Shown here piece by piece: positions 27,521 through 40,844 of a DNA stretch of 47,660 nucleotides. The stretch spans positions 1-47,660 of IMG/VR virus record IMGVR_UViG_3300035698_017218; one strand, written 5' to 3'. Source of the DNA: a virus. A model generated the notes under the pieces. It searched no databases. It saw only the letters and a list, made by a program, of their open reading frames with translations, and had not been told where the DNA came from. The position numbers were made by a program, and so were the translations under genes. The stretch's first letter is position 1. Every line of letters starts with the position of its first letter.

Positions 27521-28072
27521 ATGAAATTTAAAAACGAATTAAATAAAAAATACGCTTGTAGTAGTGCTGTTGAGTGGGTAGGTAATAAAACACGAAAAGA
27601 TGCTTGGAAATTATGCCAACGTGGTGATTGGATGCTTTGGTATTATGCTATTAAATACCCAGAAAATATTCGGGAATTAACATTGGCGAAAGGTTATTGT
27701 GCAAATACTGTCCGCCATTTAATGAAAGACAAAAGAAGTAAACAAGCCGTTGATGTTGCAATCCAATACGGAAAAGGGGAAGCAACAAAAAAACAATTAA
27801 TCGTTGCTGCTGCTGCTGCTGCTGCTTATGCTTATGCTGATGCTTATGCTTATGCTTATGCTGCTGATGCTGCTTATGCTGCTTCTTATGCTGCTTCTGC
27901 TTCTGCTGCTTCTTATGCTGCTTCTGCTGCTGCTTATGCTGCTTATGCTGCTTCTGCTGCTGCTTATGCTGCTGATGCTGCTTCTTATGCTGCTGCTTAT
28001 GCTGCTGCTATAAAAAAAGAAAATCAATTGATAACCGCCAATATATGTCGTCAATATTTAAAAATAATATAA
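27521..28072 (+). CDS. Ala/Tyr/Ser/Asp low-complexity repeat protein
   Basis: 183 residues. Residues 1-92 are an ordinary globular or helical domain (SAVEWVGNKTRKDAWKLCQRGDWMLWYYAI). Residues about 93-165 consist almost only of Ala with interspersed Tyr, Ser and Asp. A short normal tail follows (KKENQLITANICRQYLKII). I recall similar phage proteins annotated as putative immunity proteins, with an Ala/Tyr repeat before a C-terminal ICRxYL motif; this is memory, not a search. The Shine-Dalgarno GAGG is seven bases upstream. The repeat is likely length-variable. Confidence 0.7.
   Translation: MKFKNELNKKYACSSAVEWVGNKTRKDAWKLCQRGDWMLWYYAIKYPENIRELTLAKGYCANTVRHLMKDKRSKQAVDVAIQYGKGEATKKQLIVAAAAAAAYAYADAYAYAYAADAAYAASYAASASAASYAASAAAYAAYAASAAAYAADAASYAAAYAAAIKKENQLITANICRQYLKII
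27804..28012 (+). repeat. Trinucleotide repeat tract (GCT with TAT, TCT, GAT)
   Basis: About 210 bases in which every codon ends in T and almost all are GCT, TAT, TCT or GAT. Because no stop can form in most phases, long false frames appear (poly-Leu forward, Ser/Ile reverse). The tract is the coding repeat of the surrounding gene. Confidence 0.9.
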
Positions 28073-29725: not shown

Positions 29726-29757
29726 AATTCACTAATCAAGGAGATAATGAACATGGA
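29726..29757 (+). repeat. Leader repeat, copy 1 (see copy at 32310-32342)
   Basis: The stretch ATTCACTAATCAAGGAGA followed by AA, then GAACATGGA, is nearly identical to the leader of the SSB-like gene. The conserved part includes the Shine-Dalgarno and the start codon. It supports 29753, not 29747, as the start of the antirepressor gene. Confidence 0.75.
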
Positions 29758-31275: not shown

Positions 31276-31745
31276 TGAAAGAAACTACACAATTCAAACT
31301 ACCAGATAATGCCTTTGCCAACAACCCGGATATAAACCGTATTTACGAAGAAGCCTGCCAGGCAAAGCAAGAGGTACGTAAATACGAAAAAGAATTGAAG
31401 GAAGCCAAACAAGTTTACACAACGGTTGAAGAACAATTGATCGATAAAATAAAAGCGACTGGCGGATCACGATGGGAACGTGCCAAAGGTTTCTCTGCCG
31501 GTTTCGTAGAAAAGATTTATTACTCTTTTACCAAAAATAATAGGTTAGAGGTTATCGAATTGGTAACCAACCATGGTCGTGATGACCTGGTAACTGTAAA
31601 TACTCAATCGCTCGGTGGATTTTTACGCTCTGATTTCCAGAAAGATGATGAATCTGAGGTCGAAATGTCGAAACGATTGCCTGAATTTGTAAATCATTTT
31701 AGTAAATTAAAAATAACATTACGGCAGGAAGGAAAGGTTGTTTAA
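31275..31745 (+). CDS. Hypothetical protein with N-terminal coiled coil
   Basis: 156 residues. Residues about 22-60 form a coiled coil (IYEEACQAKQEVRKYEKELKEAKQVYTTVEEQL). The remainder looks globular (GRDDLVTVNTQSLGGFLRSDF). The start has GGAG seven bases upstream. The overall plan recalls small nuclease-inhibitor or recombination mediators, but no signature is visible and I do not assign one. Confidence 0.5.
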   Translation: MKETTQFKLPDNAFANNPDINRIYEEACQAKQEVRKYEKELKEAKQVYTTVEEQLIDKIKATGGSRWERAKGFSAGFVEKIYYSFTKNNRLEVIELVTNHGRDDLVTVNTQSLGGFLRSDFQKDDESEVEMSKRLPEFVNHFSKLKITLRQEGKVV

Positions 31746-31768
31746 AAAAAAATGAAAGGATATAAAGT

Positions 31769-32041
31769 ATGCAGTTAAAAATTACTTTAGAGTTTGACGA
31801 AACATTGGAACTAACTGAAAAATTTAAAAATCAACGTGTTGCACGGATGCGATTTAAAGACCTCCCAAAAGGCACAAGGTTTAAATATCCAGATAGCGAA
31901 GATATTTGGATCGTGCTTAAAACGCATGGCAATGGACTAATTGTGAAGTGGGAAGGATTAGAGCCAGGCGTAAACCGATCACATTGCTGCTTTGTTGATA
32001 AAGATTGGACGCTTGAATCTGAAGTAGATGTAATATGTTGA
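31769..32041 (+). CDS. Small hypothetical protein with SH3-like half
   Basis: 90 residues. The N-terminus MQLKITLEFDETLEL is a strand. Residues 27-65 (RMRFKDLPKGTRFKYPDSEDIWIVLKTHGNG) look like a small beta barrel. The Shine-Dalgarno AAAGGAT is moderate. It is the last gene before the structured RNA candidate; its stop overlaps a promoter-like TTGACG. Confidence 0.5.
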   Translation: MQLKITLEFDETLELTEKFKNQRVARMRFKDLPKGTRFKYPDSEDIWIVLKTHGNGLIVKWEGLEPGVNRSHCCFVDKDWTLESEVDVIC

Positions 32042-32065
32042 CGAATAAAGGATAATGGCTAAATT
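32038..32065 (+). promoter_or_regulatory. Promoter-like element before the structured RNA
   Basis: TTGACG (32038-32043), 16 bases, TAAATT (32060-32065). The first 16 bases match the late promoter at 40687 in 15 positions (TTGAC-AATAAAGGAT). A transcript would begin near 32072, at the 5' end of the structured element. The -10 box is weak. Confidence 0.35.
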
Positions 32066-32070
32066 ATGAC

Positions 32071-32279
32071 ACTGTTATAATTTTTTGCCGAAAGGAGTTG
32101 CCATCCGAGTGTTACCTTGCTGGGCCCTTAAAGAAGCAATATGGCACGTGAGAAAGAATGTGGCAAGTAGGCCGACGGTGATATATATTTATCTGCAATA
32201 GCAGGACATGCGACATGTATGGTTATATAGTGAACAGAGGAACCGCGAAGAAAACACGGTAGGCAAAAAATTATACGGT
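32071..32279 (+). ncRNA. Candidate structured noncoding RNA, about 209 nt
   Basis: TATAATTTTTTGCC (32076-32089) pairs perfectly over 14 bases with GGCAAAAAATTATA (32262-32275). One bulged T extends it by ACTG/CGGT (32071-32074 with 32276-32279), giving 18 pairs. Inside are GCCAT/ATGGC, TTGCT/AGCAA, CTGC-AATA-GCAG, ACATG-CGA-CATGT and ACCG/CGGT helices. The 296-base gap has no convincing ORF. It sits upstream of the SSB-like gene. It could be a free small RNA or a long structured 5' leader. It matches no RNA family I can name. Confidence 0.5.
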
Positions 32280-32309
32280 TGAAACTTAATACCACTAACT
32301 TAACTAACA

Positions 32310-32342
32310 ACATTCACTAATCAAGGAGACAACGAACATGGA
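32310..32342 (+). repeat. Leader repeat, copy 2 (see copy at 29726-29757)
   Basis: AACATTCACTAATCAAGGAG, then ACAACGAACATGGA. It differs from copy 1 by two T/C changes and one base of spacing. Both copies place the ATG nine bases after the Shine-Dalgarno. A shared leader before two unrelated genes suggests a common translational control or a mobile 5' module. Confidence 0.75.
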
Positions 32343-33186
32343 ACAAAAAAAAGATGCGATCACGACTTTTAACCAGGATCAGTTGGCAAAATTACCACCA
32401 GAGGTCAGGGAACGCATAAACGCACAAATCACTAAATCAATGAAAGATGTTACCGCCAGGCTGCCGGTAATCAAAATTAGCCGGGAAACAGGGCAATACA
32501 TTTTTCCAGACAATGAACTTAAACAAGATTTTACCGGCATTATCTTAAGTAGTAACATTACCAAGTCGTACTGGGATTCCAAATTCAAGGGCGATGGTAC
32601 TCCGCCCACATGCGCTTCACTTGATAGCATAAATCCAACACAGTTTGATGGAAGTTCTCCCATTAACGCTACATGCGGTGGTTGTGAAATGAACAAATTT
32701 GGTAGTGCCGTAGATGAAAATGGTAACAACACTAAAGGAAAGGCTTGCCGGGATATAAGACGTGTTCATATCATTATTGACAACAGCATTTTCCCATACA
32801 GGTTAGTGTTACCTCCTACATCGCTTTACAATTATGACGACTTCGTGACCAGGGAAACAGGGAAAACCGGATTACCAATTTCACTGTTAATGGTAAAATT
32901 CTCTACTGAAAAAGCCGAGTCAGATGGTTATAAAGTAAGTAAATTCACAGGTGAAGTTGTTAGCAACACCTTTGGTAATGATCACAGCAAACTGTCCGAT
33001 GCACTTGACAACATCGAAAAACTACAAAAAGAATTCGATCTGGCTATGCACGGACAGTTGATTGAAGATGAGGAAAAAGAAACAGAATCAAAATCAGATG
33101 TGGCTGAACCACCGAACAAAGACACAGAGAAACCACAGGTTATCAATGCAAATGCAAAAGATAGCCAAGATGATTTACCGTTCTAA
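32338..33186 (+). CDS. SSB-like early DNA-binding protein
   Basis: 282 residues. The C-terminus is an acidic, disordered tail (about 235-282) that ends in DDLPF, the tip by which bacterial single-strand-binding proteins recruit partners. A four-Cys region lies at about 91-138 (PPTCASLDS, TCGGCEMNKFGS, KACRD), followed by RRVHIIIDNSIFPYRLVLPP. Similar proteins of Firmicutes phages are annotated as DNA-binding; I recall this from general knowledge. No OB-fold is obvious from the sequence. Likely function: coating ssDNA in replication. The start is fixed by AAGGAG and the repeated leader. Confidence 0.65.
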   Translation: MEQKKDAITTFNQDQLAKLPPEVRERINAQITKSMKDVTARLPVIKISRETGQYIFPDNELKQDFTGIILSSNITKSYWDSKFKGDGTPPTCASLDSINPTQFDGSSPINATCGGCEMNKFGSAVDENGNNTKGKACRDIRRVHIIIDNSIFPYRLVLPPTSLYNYDDFVTRETGKTGLPISLLMVKFSTEKAESDGYKVSKFTGEVVSNTFGNDHSKLSDALDNIEKLQKEFDLAMHGQLIEDEEKETESKSDVAEPPNKDTEKPQVINANAKDSQDDLPF

Positions 33187-40686: not shown

Positions 40687-40715
40687 TTGACAAATAAAGG
40701 ATTTATGTTTATATT
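40687..40715 (+). promoter_or_regulatory. Strong late promoter
   Basis: TTGACA (40687-40692), 17 bases, TATATT (40710-40715): a near-consensus sigma70-type promoter. It lies in the 235-base gap before the terminase operon. The predicted transcript starts near 40722 and has a leader of about 120 bases with the hairpin at 40769. Upstream an inverted repeat GTAATATTTG/CAAATATTAC (40635-40644, 40668-40677) could be an operator. Confidence 0.7.
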
Positions 40716-40768
40716 ATTACTGTATGTAGTTTTCATAAATTTTCTTCATAAACATCTCCTTCAAGTTA

Positions 40769-40824
40769 AGCGGCAGAGCTTAACCATGTTAAGCTCTGCC
40801 GCTAATGTTAAGCTCTGCCGCTAA
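40769..40824 (+). promoter_or_regulatory. Leader hairpin with one left arm and two tandem right arms
   Basis: AGCGGCAGAGCTTAA (40769-40783) pairs perfectly over 15 bases with TTAAGCTCTGCCGCT at 40789-40803 (loop CCATG). An identical right arm follows at 40808-40822, as part of a 19-base tandem repeat. The second arm, not the first, is followed by a T-run (AATTTTTAAAT). The left arm can pair with only one right arm at a time, so the leader can adopt two exclusive hairpins. It could act as terminator or attenuator of the packaging genes. Confidence 0.7.
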
Positions 40825-40844
40825 TTTTTAAATATGGTTAAAAA

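Follow-up and report, generated by a model that had tools for sequence, protein, structure and literature searches.

A stem-closed element upstream of an SSB-like gene in a virus genome, a candidate mRNA leader

Results

Genomic setting of the element

The DNA analysed here (the window) is an IMG/VR virus record of 47,660 bases. A Bacteroidetes host is suggested by signal peptides whose last residues are SQ or AQ. The element under study is situated between a 90-aa gene (31769-32041) and the gene of an SSB-like protein (32338-33186), with a DUF7307-matching gene upstream and, downstream, a primase-like gene whose product has a CHC2 zinc finger. The annotated relatives THSA-485A, FP_Epona and Xp15 have a comparable arrangement, in which a helicase gene comes first, then small genes and then the SSB-like gene, and in THSA-485A and FP_Epona a primase-type gene follows the SSB-like gene. 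The features of the locus are the following.

32038-32065, + strand: promoter-like site TTGACG-16-TAAATT, found by consensus scan; expected transcription start, from the spacing, at ~32071-32074
32071-32089, + strand: 5' arm of the closing stem, perfect over 32076-32089, with 32071-32075 past a bulged T
32090-32261, + strand: domain interior, with predicted inner helices (pair probability about 0.56-0.95) and an energy no better than that of shuffles
32193-32204, + strand: hairpin CTGC-AATA-GCAG, the best-supported inner hairpin (pair probability 0.77-0.95)
32262-32279, + strand: 3' arm of the closing stem
32280-32337, + strand: linker, predicted to be unpaired, with an AAGGAG Shine-Dalgarno site, ACTAA three times and CTTAA twice
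32338-33186, + strand: SSB-like gene (282 aa; four family-wide cysteines, acidic DDLPF tail, gp32-like predicted fold)

The element lies among replication genes, ahead of those for the SSB-like and primase-like proteins, a place that would suit a role as DNA, for example as a replication origin or a protein-binding site. Such a role is very improbable, however, as iterons (direct repeats) were not present there among the 20 largest repeat families listed, and the GC skew has one sign throughout the window and so does not switch at the element. Elsewhere in the window, positions 27790-28010 hold an Ala/Tyr/Ser/Asp repeat within the ORF 27521-28072, and the ORF at 831-2066 contains 'F(D/N)QxISGWxxS'-like repeat units (family D2) that resemble surface-protein repeats.

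The closing stem is real and the region is non-coding

An initial annotation of this DNA had described a candidate structured RNA, neither retron nor intron, that is closed by a long-range stem and lacks a convincing ORF. The sequences TATAATTTTTTGCC (32076-32089) and GGCAAAAAATTATA (32262-32275) are exact reverse complements of 14 bp with 172 nt between them, and a bulged T allows the stem to gain four pairs, ACTGT with ACGGT (32071-32075 with 32275-32279), which brings the total to 18. In the shuffled window about 0.1 inverted repeats of at least 14 bp within 300 nt are expected, and a repeat of this length was reached in none of 1000 shuffles of the gap. In the predicted fold, computed in contexts of 400-530 nt, the pair probability of the closing stem was 0.91-0.95. 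This confirms that the inverted-repeat stem is real and beyond chance. None of the frames of the region scored as coding, in agreement with the annotation, and a coding gene was consequently rejected. For a frame of 30 codons within the domain, translation with TAG recoded was weighed too but dropped, because the other genes use all three stops and the frame has no coding score. The significant stem and the missing coding signal together support a structured RNA of the kind described.

A search of the region for a tRNA or tmRNA gave none, and this identity was rejected. The Rfam scan that had been proposed yielded no family: there were no matches at the gathering score over the window, and none at E up to 10 over 31700-32500. 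The element has its RNA ends joined by one stem, as compact phage and bacterial ncRNAs in Rfam do, but it matches none of their families.

The domain interior is no more stable than shuffles

Compared with shuffles the whole domain folds at a z of -2.5 to -2.7, whereas its interior is no more stable than they are (z -0.48). Therefore, it is the closing stem that supports a structure. Among 412 windows of the record that of the domain ranks 30 by energy and 56 by z. Three inner hairpins had been proposed, and one of these, CTGC-AATA-GCAG, is present in the predicted fold; ACATG-CGA-CATGT is displaced by a CATGC/GTATG register and ACCG/CGGT is not formed. In addition, TTGCCA (32098) could pair with TGGCAA (32161), the folding programs used being of the type that excludes pseudoknots.

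The ordinary energy of the interior and the modest z rank would also fit a stem that has no RNA function and is a chance or leftover inverted repeat, for example the termini of a small insertion, within an otherwise unremarkable untranslated region. The arms are AT-rich and include six T/A in a row, and the ends are readable as terminal inverted repeats with a TA duplication. This explanation is nevertheless somewhat unlikely, given the outcome of the gap shuffles and the coincidence of the expected transcription start with the stem base.

A promoter-like site precedes the stem and a linker predicted to be unpaired follows it

The promoter-like site matches the consensus at 9 of 12 positions; sites of this kind from the consensus scan were not enriched over shuffles. 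Sixteen bases of it, TTGACGAATAAAGGAT, recur at 40687, where the hexamer reads TTGACA. With up to three mismatches allowed the motif is no commoner than chance, and only the two exact copies stand out. Judged by this site and its spacing, the RNA would begin at the base of the stem (~32071-32074). At the second location (40687-40830) a promoter-like TTGACA-17-TATATT precedes a hairpin in which a single 5' arm (40768-40784) is accompanied by two tandem 3' arms; AATTTTT comes next. The region around this hairpin has the lowest z in the record (-6.8), and its Rfam matches are to mir-27, all sub-threshold.

Scanning the + strand from the stem to the SSB-like gene revealed no terminator-like site. 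The 57-nt linker had a predicted mean unpaired probability of 0.78, compared with 0.44 +/- 0.085 in random windows, of which 0 out of 500 scored as high, and it was predicted to be the least structured among 25 gene starts. Its positions 32282-32324 are free of G and form, by one base, the longest G-free run in the window. A 31-base translation-start block is shared at 94% identity between 32312-32342, at the start of the SSB-like gene, and 29727-29757, at the start of an anti-repressor gene (ATG at 29753).

The element is absent from the relatives searched

An RNA homolog was not found in IMG/VR, in phages, in plasmids or in the related records, and hence there is no covariation in support of a leader. 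An exact 16-mer search of IMG/VR gave four matches, in none of which the continuation was alike, and a gapped stem pattern recovered 51 stretches, none of them extending the stem by more than 3 pairs, versus 8 in the element. With blastn against phages and plasmids only short weak matches were obtained. DNA searches of the related records likewise returned weak short matches, and those inspected (in records L015 and L041) were within open frames. A single-sequence covariance model, run on 44 records, had the window as its sole match, and a second copy was not detected elsewhere in the window. Upstream of the SSB-like gene the gap measures 296 nt here versus a median of 13 nt at 133 loci with SSB-gene relatives; therefore, within the sampling, the element is confined to this lineage. 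Among 32 relatives, the region ahead of the SSB gene was only mildly unstructured (mean percentile 0.73).

That relatives lack the element is also compatible with a chance or leftover repeat, but the absence of a second copy from the window and from the plasmids and phages searched weighs against this. It is likewise what would be expected of an inserted RNA gene, since the SSB gene of the relatives does without it. Such a gene could specify an independent small RNA of ~200 nt that shares the promoter, is cut free at or beyond the stem and acts in trans on targets in the host or the phage. The two ends of the domain come together in a single stem, as they do in many discrete RNAs, and in two relatives the same gap contains RNA-like sequence. 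In Xanthomonas phage Xp15 (L219:2572-2763) the SSB-like gene is preceded by a 192-nt gap that folds at a z of -4.64; no shuffle did as well, and the sequence of this gap was found in no other phage record. In a second record (L220:2611-2898) three tRNA-like sequences were recognized in the gap by eye. A small RNA is, however, rather unlikely: the stem is not followed by a terminator-like site, no homolog was found, and the linker with its Shine-Dalgarno site downstream reads as a leader. For the host-directed variant of the initial annotation nothing speaks beyond the closed shape, and for its defence decoy supporting evidence was lacking altogether.

The SSB-like protein has a gp32-like predicted fold

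The SSB-like protein belongs to PHROG 23155, annotated as 'unknown function', and has no sequence match to any solved structure. In the family alignment P90, C92, C113, C116 and C137 are invariant. Its AlphaFold2 model has a mean pLDDT of 73.6, the cysteine-bearing residues 88-115 being mostly below 50. The model matched the RB69 SSB core (Z 6.4, 162 residues, rmsd 7.4) and the T4 gp32 core (Z 6.4, 144 residues, rmsd 6.4); these matches are 2a1k and 1gpc, and a Z of this size can mean a common arrangement only. Many other OB-fold proteins match it too. The highest score is that of a phiC31 integrase synapse (Z 7.1), and Foldseek, used by itself, returned no hit at E <= 0.001. The model supports, without proving, an OB-fold of the gp32 type.

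Discussion

Of the roles offered by the initial annotation, a leader for the SSB-like gene fits best. This reading is favoured because of the promoter-like start at the stem base, the lack of a terminator-like site, the predicted unpaired linker with AAGGAG and the gp32-like gene. Judged by this layout, the element may, tentatively, be regarded as the 5' leader of the mRNA of the SSB-like protein. Several observations weigh against a leader. The nearest SSB-gene relatives (133 loci, median gap 13 nt) do not have the element, the interior is as stable as shuffles, and the promoter match of 9/12 is to a type of site that is not enriched. Moreover, the gp32 match is of the model, at a non-decisive Z and a high rmsd, with nothing from Foldseek at the above threshold, and the T4 operator is a pseudoknot of ~28 nt compared with ~209 nt here.

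If transcription begins at or near the stem base, as the promoter-like site would imply, the mRNA 5' end would sit in the 18-pair stem that is predicted to close a domain of ~209 nt, and the unpaired linker with the Shine-Dalgarno site would come next. Leaders of the ompA type are 5'-stabilising stem leaders. The element resembles these in its predicted 5' end in a stem and unpaired linker up to the Shine-Dalgarno site, but its closed domain is much longer.

In T4 the gene 32 protein is a repressor of the mRNA that encodes it: it nucleates on a folded element at the 5' end and from there spreads across an unstructured region in which the ribosome-binding site lies (PMC535899). Behind the folded element, this operator has over 40 nt of RNA with less structure, which carries UUAAA/UAAA repeats as well as the ribosome-binding site (PMC535899). 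Like the operators of T4 and RB69, which precede a zinc-SSB gene (PMC535899), the locus is predicted to combine a folded 5' element with a downstream unstructured region, longer than 40 nt, that carries a ribosome-binding site, here the 57-nt linker with AAGGAG; the modelled protein resembles gp32. The position directly upstream of the SSB-like gene is exact, the gp32-like fold being drawn from a Z of 6.4 that is not decisive. On the other hand, the 18-pair stem and large domain differ from the T4 pseudoknot, and the linker contains ACTAA and CTTAA instead of the UUAAA repeats of T4, having neither TTAAA nor TAAA. The analogy would be one of layout and not of sequence.

By this analogy, the likely role of a leader would be post-transcriptional control of the SSB level. 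The closed domain may protect the 5' end and may act as a loading site for SSB, from which the protein could spread over the linker and block ribosomes once single-stranded DNA is saturated, as for T4 gp32. Autogenous control of this kind would account for about half of the likelihood given to the leader, and is as such unlikely. Equally unlikely is that an independently evolved structured leader lets a gp32-like SSB from another phage lineage control the mRNA that encodes it.

If the stem is only chance, the main gain would be the gp32-like annotation of PHROG 23155. If the element is a leader of this kind, it would represent a second case, from outside the T4-like phages, of an SSB gene under the control of a structured leader, and the same regulatory layout would have been reached more than once; it would also offer a starting point for a phage SSB family without a functional name.
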